A DNA stretch of 32,019 bases from an uncultured Eubacteriales bacterium. GTDB taxonomy: Bacteria > Bacillota > Clostridia > Christensenellales > Aristaeellaceae. The DNA lies in the NCBI GenBank assembly GCA_902788445.1, contig CADAKE010000012.1, positions 1 through 32,019 of the forward strand. Direction: 5' to 3'. The position numbers and the translations under genes are program-made. The notes below the pieces were generated by a model. It worked only from the letters and a program-made list of their open reading frames with translations. It did not search any database and was not told the origin of the DNA. Below are positions 3,098-32,019 of the stretch, one piece after another; positions within the stretch are counted from its first letter, which is position 1; every line of letters begins with the position of its first letter.

Positions 3098-3141
3098 GGG
3101 ATGAGCTCCGTTTCTGTCCGGTTGTTCATGAATTGAAGGGC

Positions 3142-3300
3142 ACTTTAAATCGCCAAGATAGAAGTTAGAAGAGAGGAGATAGGAGATAAATATAGTCCTT
3201 ATTAAATTGGCCTCCAAAAGCCTTCCCCTCGCAGAGGAAGGCTTTTGGAACGGTAGTCTAACTAATCCCTATTCCCTAATCCCTCGTCCCTGACTTAAAG
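3142..3300. repeat. Intergenic hairpin with simple-repeat arms, copy 1 (CTTTAA-ended)
   Basis: The element starts with CTTTAAAT (3143-3150) and ends with CTTAAAG (3294-3300). Its left arm is a purine-rich run of GATAGGAGATA-type units (3155-3187) and its right arm a pyrimidine run of CCCTATTCCCTA units (3268-3292). In the middle is a perfect 13-bp stem, CCAAAAGCCTTCC (3214-3226) with GGAAGGCTTTTGG (3236-3248). The right half from GGAAGGCTTTTG onward recurs at 21857-21926. It shares its ends and left arm with the element at 14374-14516. Confidence 0.75.
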
Positions 3301-3324
3301 CGTCCTTTTTTGATATTCTCCCTC

Positions 3325-4564: not shown

Positions 4565-5527
4565 TTAGTCAGAATATCGTTTCCCTTCGGCCTTGAAATC
4601 CTTTTCGATGCTTTCCGCAAAGCTCCGGGAATAGGCTGCGCCCTTGTACTGGGCCTTGCCCACCTTCTTGGCTTCGTAGAGCACGCTGTCGGCGTGGTGC
4701 ATCATCACGCGCAGGTCGTAGGACAGGTCGCAGTCGCCATACACATAACCGGCGGAAAAATGAAGCGGGATGTTATCCTGCTCCAGGTGCACCTTCTCCA
4801 TCGCGCGGCGAAGGGCGTCCAGCTTTTCGCGGAACATATCCTCCGACAGCCCGGCGCAGATCACCAGAAATTCATCGCCGCCATAGCGGTAGCAGGCCGA
4901 CATTCCGAACACGTCCGTCAATGCTTCCCCTACCTTTTTGAGCGCGTAGTCGCCCACGGCGTGGCCGAACCGGTCGTTGATCTGTTTAAAGTTGTCCAGG
5001 TCCAGCATCATCACGTGGACGCTGTGGCCTTCAAAATTGCTGTAGTCCCGGCTCAGGGCGTAGCGGTTGAGCGTGCCGGTCAGCGCGTCCACCATGGACG
5101 CTTCTTCCAGGGCCTTGTTGTCCGTCCTGAGCAGGCGGTTGATTTCCAGCAGCTTTTCCTGCGCGGCGAGATACCGCTTTTTCAGGTTGCCGATGAACAC
5201 CACGTTCATGATCACGCCCAGAATGATGACGCTCATCTTTTGCAGGTTCATGGAGGTGAAGGTGATCATGTCATGATCCGTGGAAAAGAAGAAGAGCGAA
5301 TAAATCAGCATCGCCACCCCGCAGGCGATGCCGGACGGATAGCCGTACAGGGTGGTGAACACCGTCAATCCGGTGATGAGAATCATGTTCGGGTTGGGAA
5401 TATTGAATATGTAAACCACAAAGCACATCACGATCATCGCGGCCAGCGAGATCACCACGTGCTTCGCCTGATCCGCTGTCTGCTGCCGTTTTTCCACCTT
5501 GCCCCATTTCTGGTCTTCCGCGGACAA
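4565..5527 (-). CDS. Membrane-anchored diguanylate cyclase (GGDEF), no inhibitory site
   Basis: The 320-residue protein has about four membrane segments between residues 23 and 115, a short coiled-coil linker (about 118-145) and a GGDEF domain (146-300). The active-site loop is an intact GGDEF (216-220), and the metal-binding LDLDNFKQIND (176-186) is also present, so cyclic-di-GMP synthesis is likely. The product-inhibition RxxD motif expected five residues before GGDEF is absent. The start is TTG, chosen because AGGGGGA lies 6 bases upstream and no other start fits. The N-terminal membrane part has no recognised sensor domain. A clean promoter lies at 5566-5594. Confidence 0.85.
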   Translation of the reverse strand: MSAEDQKWGKVEKRQQTADQAKHVVISLAAMIVMCFVVYIFNIPNPNMILITGLTVFTTLYGYPSGIACGVAMLIYSLFFFSTDHDMITFTSMNLQKMSVIILGVIMNVVFIGNLKKRYLAAQEKLLEINRLLRTDNKALEEASMVDALTGTLNRYALSRDYSNFEGHSVHVMMLDLDNFKQINDRFGHAVGDYALKKVGEALTDVFGMSACYRYGGDEFLVICAGLSEDMFREKLDALRRAMEKVHLEQDNIPLHFSAGYVYGDCDLSYDLRVMMHHADSVLYEAKKVGKAQYKGAAYSRSFAESIEKDFKAEGKRYSD

Positions 5528-5565
5528 TGCCGTTCCCCCTCTTTCCCAGCGTTTTTCCGCAGAGC

Positions 5566-5752: not shown

Positions 5753-6067
5753 ATGGCAAAAACCGTGAAGCAGGAGCGCAGCATGGCGCTGTATCAGGCC
5801 ATCCTGTCCATTCAGAGCTTGGACGAATGCTGCCGTTTTTTTGACGACCTGTGCACGCCCACCGAGCTGCGCAGTATGGAGCAGCGCTACGACGTGGCCG
5901 CCGCGCTGATGCAGGAGCAGGTGTACATGGAGATTCAGGAAAAGACCGGGGCCAGCAGCGCCACTATCAGCCGCGTGCGCCGCAACATCCTGGAAAACGC
6001 TGCGGGGGGAGCGATGCGGGAAATCATCACCCGCTTGAATCCGGACGTGGAAGAACAGGGCAGTTAA
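5753..6067 (+). CDS. YerC/YecD family TrpR-related DNA-binding protein
   Basis: The 104-residue all-helical protein matches the YerC/YecD branch of the TrpR superfamily. The segment CTPTELRSMEQRYDVAAALM and the helix-turn-helix EKTGASSATISRVRRNI (about residues 62-79) are the family signature. Members are common in Clostridia and are DNA-binding, but tryptophan is not established as their ligand, so this should not be called a Trp repressor. A strong GGAGGGGG site precedes the ATG and a promoter lies at 5656-5684. It is followed by a simple-repeat hairpin and then paaK on the same strand; whether it controls either is not known. Confidence 0.88.
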   Translation: MAKTVKQERSMALYQAILSIQSLDECCRFFDDLCTPTELRSMEQRYDVAAALMQEQVYMEIQEKTGASSATISRVRRNILENAAGGAMREIITRLNPDVEEQGS

Positions 6068-6068
6068 A

Positions 6069-6179
6069 AGAGAGTGTGCAGAGTGCAGAGAATATAGATT
6101 GCTAAATATACGTTCCCTATCTTATTGGACGCTAAAATCTCTGCACTCTGAACTCTGTACTCTGAACTCTGCACTCTCT
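6069..6179. repeat. Intergenic hairpin with simple-repeat arms, copy 2
   Basis: The left arm repeats AGAGTGCAGAG-like units (6069-6091) and the right arm repeats CTCTGCACTCTGAACTCTG-like units (6138-6179), so the two can pair over 20 or more bases around a 45-base AT-rich loop. The flavour is the same as the element at 10025-10137 and differs from the GATAGGAG type. It fills the gap between the YerC-like gene and paaK. Confidence 0.7.
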
Positions 6180-6229
6180 ATCCTCTGAACCCTCGTTTTC
6201 TATTATTTTTTATTGGAGGCTGGTTATCT

Positions 6230-7524
6230 ATGGCGGAGCGCTACTATCAACCGGAAATCGAAACCGCGTCGCGGGAGCAAATCAAGGCCTGGCAGGACGA
6301 GCGCCTGGTGAAGCAGGTGCGCCGCGTGTGGGAGAACGTGCCCTACTACCGCAAGAAGATGGAAGAAAAGGGCGTGACGCCCGACGACATCAAGGGCACC
6401 GAGGACCTGCACAAGCTGCCCTTCCTGAGCAAGGCCGACCTGCGGGACGCTTACCCCTACGGCCTGATGGGCGCGCCGCTCAAGGACTGCGTGCGCATCC
6501 AGTCCACCTCCGGCACCACCGGCAAGCGCGTGGTGGCGTTCTACACCCAGGCGGACATTGACCTGTGGGAGGACTGCTGTGCCCGCGCCATCGTGGCGGC
6601 GGGCGGCACCAATGAGGACGTGTGCCAGGTCAGCTACGGCTACGGCCTGTTCACCGGCGGCCCCGGCCTGAACGGCGGCAGCCACAAGGTGGGATGCCTC
6701 ACCATCCCCATGTCCTCCGGCAACACCGAGCGGCAGATCATGTTCATCCGCGACCTGAACGCGACCATCCTCTGCTGCACGCCCTCCTACGCCGCCTACC
6801 TGGGCGAAACCATGAAGGAAATGGGCCTGACCCCCGCCCAGATTCCCCTCAAAGCGGGCATCTTCGGCGCGGAAGCCTGGAGCGAGGAAATGCGCCAGGA
6901 CATTCAGAAAACCCTGGGCATCAAGGCGTATAACATTTACGGGCTGACCGAATTGTCCGGCCCCGGCGTGTCCTTTGAGTGTTCCGCCCAGACCGGGATG
7001 CACATCAACGAGGACCACTTCATTGCCGAGATCATTGACCCCGTCACCGGCGAAGTGCTGCCCGACGGCCAGCAGGGCGAATTGGTGTTCACCGCCATCA
7101 CCAAGCAGGCGTTCCCCATGCTGCGCTACCGCACCAAGGATATCTGCGTCCTGAGCCGGGAGAAGTGCCCCTGTGGGCGCACCCACGTCAAGATGAGCAA
7201 GCCCCGCGGACGCAGCGACGACATGCTCATCATCCGCGGCGTGAACGTGTTCCCCAGCCAGATCGAAACCGTGCTGCTCAACATGGGCTATCCCGCCAAC
7301 TACCAGATCGCGTGAACCACACCGACACGCTCGACGTGCAGGTTGAAATGACCCCCGAAATGTTCACCGACAACATGGGCGAAATCGCCCAGCGCCAGAA
7401 AGCCCTGGTGGACGGCCTGCGCTCCATGCTCGGCCTCACCGCCAAGGTCTCCCTCGTCGCGCCCAAGACCATCGTCCGCAGCGAGGGTAAGGCCGTTCGC
7501 GTGATTGATAAAAGGAAGATTTAA
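6230..7524 (+). pseudogene. paaK: Phenylacetate-CoA ligase, split by a frameshift near the C-terminus
   Basis: The first 361 codons encode most of an AMP-forming aryl-acid CoA ligase of the PaaK family: STSGTTGKR (ATP loop, residues 92-100), YGLTELSGPG, MLRYRTKD and the GVNVFPSQIE turn that leads into the small lid domain. The frame then hits TGA at 7313-7315. The rest of the lid domain (starting DRVNHTDTLDVQVEM and ending near the conserved Gly-Lys) continues in another frame to 7524. Family members read on without interruption, so a small net deletion (one base modulo three, perhaps 7 or 10 bp) at about 7306-7312 explains it. It is either a recent inactivation or a sequencing error. PaaK activates phenylacetate or indoleacetate-type acids, typical of aromatic amino acid fermentation, and is often paired with an ACT protein, as here. 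Confidence 0.88.
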
Positions 7525-7530
7525 AAGAAT

Positions 7531-7953
7531 GAACGACGGAGCGAGGGCCTGTGCGGCCCTCGTGCACCCGCACCAGGAGATTTCATCTCCTGGACCTCAA
7601 TAGCGGATGTTGCATGACTTGATAAATCAGCTTAGTTCCCGCTGTTGCTTGGAAGGATGTGTAAGCCGGGCTTCGTGTCGTTGTGCTTCTGGCCCGGCGT
7701 CCTTTGGACGCCACCCCGGATGCAAAGCATCCGGGGAAAGCCAGGGAATAATCCGCAGGGGAAAGCGAGCTTTCCCCCTCGGATTATCCCAGGCTTTCTT
7801 GGGCCAGAAGCCCTCTAACTTTTCGTAACCTCAACGCAGCAGGCGGGAGTAGTCTGCTTTATCCAACGACGTAATTTCGCCGGTTGTGGGTCCAGGGGGA
7901 TCATCCCCCTGGCGCAGGTCTGGGGGCGCGCAGCCCCCAGCGGTTCCATTTAT
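7531..7953. repeat. Long nested-palindrome element, copy 1 (complete)
   Basis: This 420-bp non-coding stretch is one large inverted repeat built of smaller perfect hairpins. On the left are stems at 7542-7562 and 7573-7593; the right arm mirrors them with stems at 7880-7935. A longer imperfect pairing joins 7621-7648 to 7836-7863, and an 11-bp perfect stem joins 7685-7695 to 7801-7811. Inside the latter are three hairpins: 7696-7712, 7714-7736 and the long one at 7744-7790, whose base extends to GAAAGCC/GGCTTTC. A small stem lies at 7663-7673. The right end stops about 5 bases before the ribosome site of the ACT gene. A second copy begins at 31826. There is no plausible protein. Confidence 0.85.
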
Positions 7954-7970
7954 AGAAGGAGGAAGAATCA

Positions 7971-8402
7971 GTGAGCGTAAAGCAGATTTCCATATTCCTT
8001 GAAAACAAGCCCGGCTTCTTAGCCGAAGTAACCAAAATCCTGGCCCAGAATGAGATCGACATGCGGGCCTTCTCCCTGGCGGAGAGCAACGATTTCGGCA
8101 TCGCCCGCATCATCGTGGACGACGTGTTCAAAACCACCACAGTGCTCAGAGACGCGGGCTACATCAACAGCGTGATCGACATTCTGGCCGTGGCCATGGA
8201 CGACGTGCCGGGCGGCCTGAGCAAGGTGCTGACCGTGCTGGCCGAAGCCCAGGTGAACGTGGAATACATGTACGCTTTCCTCGGCGGCAAGACCGGCGGG
8301 GCCTACATGGTATTCAAGGTGGCCGACCACGACAAGGCCATCGCCGCGCTGTACAAGTACCGCATCCGCATGGTGGATCAGGACGAGCTGGGAGAACTGT
8401 AA
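7971..8402 (+). CDS. Tandem ACT-domain protein
   Basis: The 143-residue protein consists of two ACT domains (about 3-67 and 71-140), as shown by the opening [23 protein letters not shown] and the second copy of the pattern, [26 protein letters not shown] domains bind amino acids; stand-alone tandem ACT proteins of this kind usually sit beside paaK or indolepyruvate oxidoreductase genes in Clostridia and are thought to sense aromatic or other amino acids. The start is GTG at 7971, because AGGAGGA lies 7-8 bases upstream and no ATG is near. It follows the frameshifted paaK across the nested-palindrome element and is closely followed by the Fic gene. It has no catalytic domain. Confidence 0.88.
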
Positions 8403-9547: not shown

Positions 9548-10018
9548 ATGGACGAAGCGAGCTTTTTGAACCGGGCCGTTCCGCTCCAGCAGCAGATGTA
9601 CCGCATGGCCTTTTCCATCATGAAGAACCACTTCGACGCGGAGGACGCGGTACAGGACGCGATGCTGAAAGCCTGGCGCAAGGCGGACACCCTGCGGAAT
9701 GAGGATGTGTTCACGCCCTGGCTGAAAACGATCCTGCGCAATCAATGCATTGAATCCCTGCGGAAAACCGGGCGGTTCGTGCCGATGGAAATGGACGGCT
9801 TTTACCAGGAGCCAGCGGAAGAAACACTGGAAGTCCAGGAATTGCTGGACAGCCTGAACGCCGCCCTTCGCCAAACGCTGTGGCTTCATGACGGCGAGGG
9901 ATACAAGATGCGGGAAATCGCGGAAATGATGCGCGTGCCGCTCACCACCGTCCGCTCCCGGCTGCACCGGGGAAGGAACTGTATCAGGGACAAGATTGCG
10001 TCTGCAATCGACAAATAA
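9548..10018 (+). CDS. ECF-type RNA polymerase sigma factor
   Basis: The 156-residue protein has a region 2 (MYRMAFSIMKNHFDAEDAVQ, DAMLKAWRK, WLKTILRNQCIESLRK, about residues 17-77) and a region 4 helix-turn-helix (YKMREIAEMMRVPLTTVRSRLHRGR, about 119-145) with the size of an extracytoplasmic-function sigma factor. No region 3 is present. It lies 7 bases after the BlaI-like gene with a GAGGGGC site, so the two are co-transcribed, and it precedes the M56 protease across a simple-repeat hairpin. There is no recognisable anti-sigma gene beside it; the M56 protein may fill that control role, which is inference. Which promoters it reads is not known. Confidence 0.92.
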   Translation: MDEASFLNRAVPLQQQMYRMAFSIMKNHFDAEDAVQDAMLKAWRKADTLRNEDVFTPWLKTILRNQCIESLRKTGRFVPMEMDGFYQEPAEETLEVQELLDSLNAALRQTLWLHDGEGYKMREIAEMMRVPLTTVRSRLHRGRNCIRDKIASAIDK

Positions 10019-10024
10019 TCAAAC

Positions 10025-10137
10025 ATGAGAGAGTTCAGAGTACAGAGTTCAGAAGATCAAGTGCATGATAAACATTTCCACCGTTTATTACAATCTACAT
10101 TCTCTGTACTCTGCACTCTGTACTCTGCACACTGAAA
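10025..10137. repeat. Intergenic hairpin with simple-repeat arms, copy 3
   Basis: The left arm repeats GAGTTCAGAGTACAGAGTTCAG-like units (10025-10052) and the right arm repeats TCTCTGTACTCTGCACTCTGTACTCTGC (10100-10131). They pair around a 45-base loop. It sits between the sigma factor and the M56 gene within one probable operon. Confidence 0.7.
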
Positions 10138-14373: not shown

Positions 14374-14516
14374 CTTTAAATCCTCAAGATAGGAATGAGG
14401 AGATAGAAGATAGGAGATAAATAAACGCAATCAAACGGACTATGTACTTGCGACTTATTTGAAAAACAAGATCAATCTTCTATCTCCTCTCTCCTAACTC
14501 CTATCTTGGCTTAAAG
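14374..14516. repeat. Intergenic hairpin with simple-repeat arms, copy 4 (CTTTAA-ended)
   Basis: It is bounded by CTTTAA (14374-14379) and TTAAAG (14511-14516). The left arm (CTCAAGATAGG then GAGATAGAAGATAGGAGATA units) and right arm (ATCTTCTATCTCCTCTCTCC, then CCTATCTTGG) are near reverse complements over about 45 bases with a 50-base loop. This is the cleanest member of the family and defines its termini as CTTTAA followed closely by CAAGATAG. Confidence 0.8.
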
Positions 14517-15720: not shown

Positions 15721-15826
15721 TGTAGGGGCGGATATCATCCGCCCGCGCTAAACAATGTCATGCAAGCCATGAAAATGCTGATTGCTGCCATCCGTTTCTT
15801 TCGGGCGGATGATATCCGCCCCTACA
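15721..15826. repeat. MITE-like palindromic element, copy B
   Basis: The same ends as the element at 153-257 (TGTAGGGGCGGATAT ... ATATCCGCCCCTACA), 106 bp long, with a different interior. It lies in the 575-base space between psuG and the 7TM cyclase. The rest of that space holds the psuG leader, AT-rich sequence with no recognised feature (15827-15960), and the promoter below. Confidence 0.75.
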
Positions 15827-17965: not shown

Positions 17966-18505
17966 TTGTGCGCAGAAGCAGATAAACGCGCGGCAAAGCA
18001 GCGCTATTTAACGGAAGAGATTTCCCTGTCCGCGCTGTCAAAGGAAACGGGCATTCCCTATTCCACCCTGAAAACCTGGCGGAAAAAGGAAAACTGGGAT
18101 CAGGAACGCTCAAGCATTGAAAACGAAGCGTTCAAAAAAGCGGCAGTCCGGGCGGTGAACAAGAAAGCCAAGGAACTGTGCAAGCTGCTGGAGGCGTCGG
18201 ACGAACTGGAAAAGGCGCTGCTCCTGGCGGCGAAAGCCTTTTCCGCGTACCTGGAAGGGGAGGGCGGCAGCGAGATCCTCACCGACAAAAAGACCTGGGC
18301 GGATAACCTGAACCACATCGTGGCGGCCATCGGCAAACAGGCGGAAACGCGGATGATGCTCTCCGGCATCATGGCCAAGGACGAGGAAGAAAAAATCGCC
18401 CTCATGCGCCGCAAGCAAACCCTGGAGGAACGCAAGGAACGGCAGGAGGCGGCGGGCGGCATCGGCATTGTGCTGGACGCGGGGACGGAGGAACTTTCGC
18501 AATGA
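17966..18505 (+). CDS. Phage terminase small subunit-like protein
   Basis: The 179-residue protein starts with a helix-turn-helix (LSALSKETGIPYSTLKTWRKKENW, about residues 21-44), followed by a long helical region that ends in a charged coiled coil (KDEEEKIALMRRKQTLEERKERQE). This is the layout of small terminase subunits, which recognise DNA at packaging start. TTG at 17966 is the start, because GGAGGTGA sits 6 bases before it and no ATG is near. The terminase large subunit follows after a simple-repeat hairpin. A transposase-like or phage-regulator HTH is less likely, given the next genes. Confidence 0.75.
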   Translation: MCAEADKRAAKQRYLTEEISLSALSKETGIPYSTLKTWRKKENWDQERSSIENEAFKKAAVRAVNKKAKELCKLLEASDELEKALLLAAKAFSAYLEGEGGSEILTDKKTWADNLNHIVAAIGKQAETRMMLSGIMAKDEEEKIALMRRKQTLEERKERQEAAGGIGIVLDAGTEELSQ

Positions 18506-18511
18506 CAGCAG

Positions 18512-18598
18512 GGAAGATAGGAGATAGAAGAGAGGAGATAGGAGATGAATATAGATGACAAAAAACTCCTCACTCCTCACTCTTCACTCCTAACTCTC
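18512..18598. repeat. Simple-repeat hairpin, copy 5, overlapping the start of the large terminase
   Basis: The left arm has GATAGGAGATA units (18514-18546), the right arm ACTCCTCACTCCTCACTC units (18564-18598). The two arms are of different flavours, so pairing is only partial. The left arm ends GGAGATAGGAGATG and so supplies a ribosome site and an ATG (18545); the right arm encodes the first residues after it. Confidence 0.65.
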
Positions 18599-27362: not shown

Positions 27363-27445
27363 GGTTGAATGCGCCTCACAATTTGAGATGTCATAAGAAA
27401 ATTATCGTAATTGTTCAGTCGCTTACCGTACAAAAGCATCATTCC

Positions 27446-27569
27446 AGAGAGGAGTTAGGGGAGAGGAGATAGGAGATGAAAAATGACAATGCTTTTATTG
27501 GCTGCTTTCATGTGCGCTTTTGTATCGGACGCTATCAATCTTCTAACTCCTAACTCCTATCTCCTATCT
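27446..27569. repeat. Intergenic hairpin with simple-repeat arms, copy 7
   Basis: The left arm GAGAGGAGTTAGGGGAGAGG then AGATAGGAGATG (27446-27478) pairs with the right arm TCTTCTAACTCCTAACTCCT then ATCTCCTATCT (27539-27569) around a 60-base loop. The flavour is the same as at 14374-14516 but without the CTTTAA ends. It lies downstream of the ABC operon and may serve as its end. Confidence 0.7.
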
Positions 27570-31825: not shown

Positions 31826-32019
31826 ACCGGAGCGAGGGCCTATGCGGCCCTCGTGCACCTGCACCAAAGGCCTTCGGCCTCTGGACTCCGGCTGCGGAAT
31901 TGAGTTGCGCGTATAATTCGTGTTGGTTCCCGCTGATACATGGAGGAACGCGGATATTCCGCTTGACCGCGTTGTGTTTCTGGCCCGGCGTCCTTCGGAC
32001 GCCTTCCCGGATGCGAAGC
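31826..32019. repeat. Long nested-palindrome element, copy 2 (cut by the window end)
   Basis: This matches the left half of the element at 7531-7953. The conserved order is: CCGGAGCGAGGGCC stem (31833-31853), flank TGCACC, second stem (31864-31884), TTCCCGCTG, a small stem (31950-31962), TTCTGGCCC, the GGCGTCC/GGACGCC stem (31987-32003), then the first arm of the CCCGGATGC stem. The second stem (AAAGGCC with GGCCTCT) differs entirely from that of copy 1 (AGGAGAT with ATCTCCT). It lies upstream of, and divergent from, the T-box promoter. Confidence 0.85.

Follow-up and report, generated by a model that had tools for sequence, protein, structure and literature searches.

Prokaryotic MITEs such as Correia/NEMIS, RUP, ERIC/RU-1 and QMITE1/2 are short, noncoding, intergenic sequences with inverted ends, usually smaller than 500 bp and typically, if not strictly, AT-rich. 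In the inverted terminal repeats of AAV and other parvoviruses small palindromes are nested in a large one, and flip and flop forms occur. MITE reports describe many copies, size variants and stable predicted folds of the transcripts (PMC10969869, PMC2229807). REPINs and REP-BIME are inverted pairs of hairpins; the size of a REP is given as 20-40 bp (PMC3733652), and compensatory changes are mentioned for REPINs (PMC3116915). In rRNA hairpins, paired changes accompanied by inverted loops have been presented as the footprint of template switching (PMC8794818).

The window analysed here, a stretch of 32,019 nucleotides from an uncultured Eubacteriales bacterium of the Aristaeellaceae (contig CADAKE010000012.1), holds a noncoding repeat of ~400 bases that occupies numerous genomic sites in one genus of uncultured ruminant-gut bacteria. 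In copy number, location and absence of genes it is like other palindromic repeats of intergenic DNA, and it is best regarded as a non-autonomous, MITE-like palindromic repeat with an elaborate core of conserved shape (probability about 0.6), probably parasitic and spread by enzymes supplied from elsewhere. It is termed MITE-like rather than a full MITE because no partner was found in five transposase families and no target duplication by eye; it further differs from MITEs in its GC-rich core of ~400 nt, its nested hairpin layers, its covarying stems and the presence of several outer ends per core. In contrast to REPINs, the element is far larger than a REP, and no match to a Y1 transposase was obtained in five element-bearing genomes. 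Unlike the template-switched rRNA hairpins, the changes are seen here across repeat copies, and at one hairpin either orientation of the loop is frequent; the likeness to parvoviral ends is one of resemblance only, no replication protein or viral context having been seen. The first-pass annotation knew of no described element of this form. None was found in the open-licence literature searched, and in Rfam 15 no family reached the gathering threshold in the window, and each of the nine matches obtained from five loci at E <= 1 stayed below its gathering score; the general kind, however, is already known from MITE-like intergenic palindromic repeats and REPINs.

Architecture of the element

The extent first proposed, 7531-7953, is close to that defined by the profile (Table 1), which also matches the reverse strand of a copy. 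The whole copy is a single large imperfect inverted repeat, in which a branched centre separates two homologous arms of opposite orientation. In its commonest form an arm begins on the outside with the terminal hairpin, of 8 bp with a 5-nt loop; inwards follow a linker, the second hairpin, of 9 bp with a 3-nt loop, and an inner helix that is weak. In the centre, a stem opens into the small hairpins J1 and J2 and into a third branch, which bears an apical hairpin. Stem lengths, loop lengths and junctions are almost invariant in 55 copies. The fold of copy 1 surpassed chance level both as RNA (Table 1) and as DNA (z = -8.98), with none of 100 shuffles as good in either case. The central domain of the window copy has a GC content of 0.61, and no open reading frame of at least 100 aa overlaps this copy, the one examined in this respect.

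Inspection of the sequence agreed with the description of a second hairpin occurring three times, as AGGAGAT-TTC-ATCTCCT in the left arm of copy 1 (HL2, 7575-7591), AGGGGGA-TCA-TCCCCCT in the inverted right arm (HR2, 7894-7910) and AAAGGCC-TTC-GGCCTCT in copy 2 (31866-31882). The first hairpin (7543-7561 in copy 1, 31834-31852 in copy 2) had been claimed to behave alike; its stem is identical in the two window copies, which differ there in the loop and opposite arm only, and across 55 copies four of its eight pairs have changed on both sides.

Table 1. Position of the element and its parts in the window.
Feature	Position	Strand	Basis
Nested-palindrome element, copy 1, 402 nt	7541..7942	+	profile match, model positions 1-402; fold z = -9.35 (RNA)
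Left terminal hairpin HL1, 5-nt loop	7543..7561	+	length survey, A1 covariation, sequence
Left second hairpin HL2, 9 bp, TTC loop	7573..7593	+	length survey, pair counts, A1 covariation, sequence
Left inner helix GCGG/CCGC, 7603-7606 with 7639-7642	7603..7642	+	A1 covariation, helix 3
Central branched domain (region of covariance model R1)	7682..7815	+	150.7 bits (window row within model); A4 covariation
Central stem, 7685-7695 with 7801-7811	7685..7811	+	helix 4 of A1, helix 1 of A4
Hairpin J1	7696..7712	+	length survey, A1 covariation, sequence
Hairpin J2, loop AAA here, TTT/GAA/TTC elsewhere	7714..7736	+	length survey, loop counts, sequence
Third branch, apical hairpin GGGGAAAG..CTTTCCCC	7737..7798	+	A1 covariation, helices 7-9
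Right inner helix, 7842-7846 with 7877-7881	7842..7881	+	A1 covariation, helix 10
Right second hairpin HR2, inverted counterpart of HL2	7892..7912	+	length survey, pair counts, A1 covariation, sequence
Right terminal hairpin HR1, counterpart of HL1	7920..7940	+	length survey, A1 covariation, sequence
Copy 2, truncated by the contig end; class C-like outer end just to the left (by eye)	31828..32019	+	blast, R1 model

Distribution

Recurrence of the element in its own genome, a draft in 218 contigs, was confirmed by 59 blast matches to copy 1, many of which are partial or at contig ends and several of which belong to one copy; many lie at contig ends because the assembly broke within the repeat. 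Among 60 genomes, the same query matched the own genome and 27 of 28 congeners, and none of 31 from other genera. R1, a covariance model built on the 134 central positions, found matches in 28 of the 29 genomes of the genus, numbering 1 to 115 per positive genome, figures that do not represent copy counts because at most 115 candidates were scored in each and a palindrome can match on both strands. In 297 genomes of the order, searched with stricter filters than the genus, R1 matched five, three belonging to the genus and two to others, one of the latter with its match at a contig end.

A pattern scan of named genomes matched at least 106 stretches; among the matches listed nearly all are from Clostridia MAGs and many, judged by name, from gut MAGs of cattle, goat, buffalo or deer. 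The MAGs include RUG14706, RUG563, RUG13860, RUG14052, RGIG3226 and RGIG3310, and some are labelled Christensenellaceae. Two Chloroflexi matches (L104, L105) were dismissed as chance, the profile finding no element in either. A full copy was also seen on a 4.3-kb IMG/VR contig (L184).

Conservation of pairing

Copies gathered from the genome and its relatives and compared with shuffles upheld the main claim of the first-pass annotation, that stems change in sequence and keep their pairing. The MAFFT alignment A1 contains 55 of the 63 unique full-length copies without runs of N, two having been left out for scores below 150 and six by hand for length or gaps (30 of the 55 form alignment A2). 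In A1, standard pairs make up 97.6% of the cells in 87 pairs, and 37 pairs and 316 cells have changed on both sides compared to 20.0 and 84.5 in shuffles, a control that ignores the relatedness of copies (0/500 as high). Slid controls lower the paired share to 39-57%; additional pair types stand out less (78 vs 71.8, with 8 of 500 shuffles as high). For alignment A4, 34 loci were chosen and their 34 matches at E <= 1e-15 used; two divergent congeners supply 20 of these. Here 36 of 48 core pairs changed on both sides, 97.3% of the cells are paired and 240 cells changed on both sides (69.5 in shuffles, 0/500), values that lean toward the model structure because A4 was aligned to the model, and with which slid controls and a separate MAFFT alignment agree. 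Pairing was borne out across copies for HL2, HR2, J1, J2 and the central stems; the central stem reads CCAGGGCAC/GTGCCCTGG in the congener G017 and TTCTGGCCC/GGGCCAGAA in the window copy. That pairing is kept while the stem sequence changes, also in the two divergent congeners, is strongly supported.

The small palindrome (7663-7673 in copy 1, 31950-31962 in copy 2) had been counted among the covarying stems and was rejected as a conserved stem, its pairing being at shuffle level: in the 43 of the 55 copies that are ungapped there, 146 of 172 cells pair, compared to 143.1 in shuffles, of which 258 in 2000 were as high.

Bases of the linker that adjoins the second hairpin complement those of the terminal-hairpin loop more than permuted combinations do (for example GGTGC with GCACA, GGCGC with GCGCA, GGTTC with GAACA). 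The 208 parsed ends gave 62 distinct combinations, a part of which derive from the centre of the element and not from its ends; over these 62 the mean longest complement was 2.18, vs 1.53 after permutation (0/2000 as high). Complementarity is absent from some of the frequent ones (GGTGGGGT with GAA or AAA). In the simplest reading, linker and loop would form an H-type pseudoknot.

The excess of covariation over shuffles and slid controls, the recognition of divergent congeners by the covariance model and the linker-loop complementarity would also suit a structured RNA family, transcribed and selected for its RNA fold, which would spread because the RNA is useful or would itself move as RNA. 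This explanation appears rather improbable, as copies show no strand preference with respect to genes, the two arms are mirror-symmetric, a scan of 7300-8200 revealed no promoter-like or terminator-like site within the copy, and non-standard cells in the centre favour neither strand (G.T 14 and A.C 18 in A1; G.T 23 and A.C 30 in A4). It should be kept in mind that covariation in bacterial repeats alone does not prove a functional RNA. Wobble pairs were considered as a guide to the strand that folds: on the + strand HL2 has 33 A.C and 1 G.T, and HR2 24 G.T and 4 A.C, so that G.T falls on the outward-reading strand in both arms. This use was rejected, the signal resting largely on about two stem variants that the arms share; the other helices do not have the pattern (left inner helix G.T 7, A.C 1; centre approximately even; A1 arms mixed).

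Variation of stems and loops

The stem of J2 is almost constant and its loop occurs in both orientations, with TTT (56), GAA (32), AAA (30) and TTC (13) together accounting for 131 of 139 loops. The overlap of these loops with their reverse complements is 88, compared to 5.3 for random triplet pairings (0/5000 as high), and the same statistic is weaker or absent elsewhere, random pairings being as high in 76 (J1), 1128 (HL2) and 205 (HR2) of 5000 trials. When J2 was compared in 151 pairs with at most 8 differences in 90 flanking positions (pairs that are not independent, their counts being given without a chance level), the loop differed in 69, at one position in 32 and at all three in 37; every one of the latter is an inversion with at most one substitution, 16 being exact. 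Non-Watson-Crick cells in J2 are scarce (5/1112, copies with more than three such pairs left out).

Variants are common to both arms and to different copies: eight forms of the second-hairpin stem appear both in the left list (14) and in the right list (13). At an orthologous site shared by the own genome (L002) and RUG14706 (L173), where flanks are ~84-85% alike, HR2 differs at its two innermost pairs together, with identical adjoining bases, and the apical, left and J1 hairpins likewise differ in blocks. Another orthologous pair, from two species (L078/L176), is nearly identical throughout the element; the element and its near flanks (6000-6470 and 5066-5536, respectively) are almost the same and the wider flanks 90.9% alike, suggesting a recent local exchange or conversion.

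Inverted loops, stem changes with few intermediates and common variants are marks of template switching and copy-to-copy conversion. The first-pass annotation had concluded that covariation means that the structure is kept. The pairing is indeed kept, but the step from covariation to a selected structure is not secure, because loops invert and stem changes affect whole pairs, few intermediates being seen. Taken to its limit, mutation would account for everything, template switching and conversion keeping the palindromes perfect with no selection on the fold. The inversions of the J2 loop, including those at all three positions, the scarcity of non-Watson-Crick cells there and the paired blocks at orthologous sites are all in line with such upkeep, yet as the sole cause it is improbable: it leaves unexplained the nearly fixed lengths and junctions in 55 copies, the persistence of the branched layout across the genus and a linker-loop matching that goes beyond simple hairpin repair, and the loop statistic is weaker or absent at J1, HL2 and HR2. 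Probably both selection and mutational repair of palindromes act, and the many natural copies of one fold provide a test bed for distinguishing covariation due to selection from that due to palindrome-repairing mutation. For the MITE-like repeat preferred here, a whole stem may be replaced at once, through template switching at its hairpin and through conversion from another copy; such renewal would account for loops in inverted form, for paired changes that pass through few intermediates, for variants common to the arms and for swapped interiors.

Outer ends and nested layers

The flanks of many copies show an outer inverted end, of which there are at least four types: A (TAACAGTCATGTTGTGAAGG), B (GGGCACTTTAATTCAC), C (GTTACCATTCAGCTATCGCATGATG) and D (CAAATTGGGATTTG). 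The window copy has none of the four. Class A sites number 79, 101 and 79 in G019, G009 and G013 (1, 2 and 0 for the reversed pattern), and class B sites 83, 82, 103 and 30 in G000, G019, G009 and G013 (2, 2, 1 and 1 reversed). TA precedes 87 of 265 loose class A matches. The fetched loci contain 28 pairs of A ends spanning 97-643 bp and 21 pairs of B ends spanning 152-551 bp, of which 23 and 13, respectively (36 of 49), hold a core match of at least 150 positions. Short pairs consist of outer layers only: the smallest hold barely more than the terminal hairpin, and a 147-bp pair adds the second hairpin. The core-bearing end-to-end copies range from 226 to 643 bp, 29 of 36 being below 500 bp. 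No transposase gene of their own lies between the ends, the longest of the 49 pairs measuring 643 bp in a search that allowed up to 4000 bp; longer copies could be missed because assemblies break in repeats.

Extra layers are seen inside the element as well. Extra hairpins of ~80-120 nt lie inside the second right hairpin at four loci (L022, L091, L033, L035), and inserted hairpins occur in three of the six end pairs of at least 530 bp. By eye, the structured inserts in HR2 of L022 (~826-950) and L091 (~2823-2904) have stems that differ between the loci and stay paired. B ends also bound quite different interiors, for example at 3138-3305 of the window, one of several stretches of stuttering AGGAGATAGGAGATA or CTCTGCACTCTG inverted repeats (also 14374-14510, 18502-18598, 27433-27569, 6073-6185 and 10010-10134). 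In L151 and L083, which represent an orthologous site with flanks 94% alike, the core is present in one species, and in the other a matching right end adjoins a different interior; at a second such site (L155/L138) the core is in the opposite orientation.

These observations are consistent with a MITE-like repeat that would be spread by an enzyme supplied in trans and acting at the outer ends, its hairpins being kept because the folded form may matter for spread, replication or host tolerance. Against this reading stand the missing partner and autonomous copy, the GC-rich core and a window copy without the four end types; in addition, movement is inferred indirectly, since the absence of a copy from a site may also result from its loss and the swapped interior of L151/L083 could represent two independent insertions.

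A variant of mobility that we consider possible but not likely is a palindrome recognised by its shape. Both ends would bear one and the same module, composed of a hairpin and of a terminal hairpin with a loop that forms a pseudoknot with the linker, and a recombinase or a replication process would read the fold and not the sequence. Freed from sequence constraint, stems would drift as whole pairs, loops and even the core would invert, and new hairpins inserted into old ones would make the element grow or shrink in nested layers. An enzyme that reads the fold would make this an unusual kind of mobile DNA end.

Insertion sites and neighbouring genes

The window copy has a paaK-like gene on one side and an ACT-domain gene on the other; the ACT gene was found in 26 of the 29 genomes of the genus, the own genome included. 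Among the 26 other loci with the two genes, a search at E <= 1e-3 picked up no copy between them, and in the eight gaps that were aligned the spacers are short or different. In G006 a copy lies on the other side of the ACT gene, where G026 and G011 give weak partial matches. By eye, the same gap in G019 (L187) holds a different palindromic element, of other sequence and similar layout. In the window, the upstream paaK-like gene (6230-7524) is split in two frames, with its C-terminal domain in the other frame, by a sequencing error or as a pseudogene.

With genes predicted by an in-house caller, and after seven duplicates (loci fetched under two names) had been dropped, 102 of 117 copies overlapped no predicted gene by more than 40 nt, that is, the element is mostly intergenic. 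The 82 copies with both neighbours lie in 53 tandem, 25 convergent and 4 divergent spacers, and other spacers of at least 80 nt are tandem in 125, convergent in 25 and divergent in 51 cases. Tandem copies have no orientation bias (28 on the same strand as the genes, 25 on the opposite). The rarity of copies in divergent spacers and their excess in convergent ones would fit a 3'-end element that serves neighbouring transcripts by protection or by factor-dependent termination in both directions, and its symmetry would suit either direction. Nevertheless, no intrinsic terminator was found in the copy and insertion sites differ between species, and we regard such a role as unlikely.

Search for a partner transposase

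Five families were searched in the 29 genomes: Y1_Tnp, ISL3, DDE_Tnp_1, IS630-type (DDE_3) and IS256-type (Transposase_mut). All five were rejected as partners, since none of 63 fetched loci (49 tested for ends A-D and 14 for A and B) had a matching pair of ends around the transposase, only loose single matches being scattered there. The element-rich genomes G009 and G019 gave no match to four of the families, and two and one matches, respectively, to DDE_Tnp_1. The partner could belong to other families or have been lost in assembly gaps. No target duplication was noticed among 19 copies in an inspection by eye that was not systematic.

The inverted arrangement of hairpins, and the compensatory changes mentioned for REPINs (PMC3116915), recall REP/REPIN repeats moved by a RAYT or another Y1 (HUH) transposase. 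Y1_Tnp is nonetheless found in 10 of the 29 genomes and gave no match in five that carry the element (G000, G009, G019, G006 and G013, the own genome among them), drafts of 80-95% completeness in which a single gene could be missed; this origin is very unlikely. Among the rivals, a structured RNA is placed first, followed by mutational upkeep, a transcript-end element and lastly REPINs, and not all of them are mutually exclusive.

An element lies near a transposase match at three of the 49 loci (L214, L304, L306). Of these, L306 was discarded as a transposase-element unit: together with L168 and L100 it represents one contig stretch, 100% identical, and not a repeated unit. This stretch, with the element beside a DDE_Tnp_1 gene, occurs in the bins Oscillospiraceae RGIG1531 and Clostridia RGIG3310, an identity that would reflect either mis-binning or transfer.

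Other inverted repeats in the window

At the start of the contig (1-398), the arms 1-134 and 265-398 enclose a palindromic repeat and are inverted copies of each other (99%); the arrangement resembles a fold-back at the contig end, perhaps an artefact of assembly. A further inverted repeat pair is located at 153-257 and 15721-15826, with 25-nt ends (TGTAGGGGCGGATATCATCCGCCCG) that are themselves hairpins.
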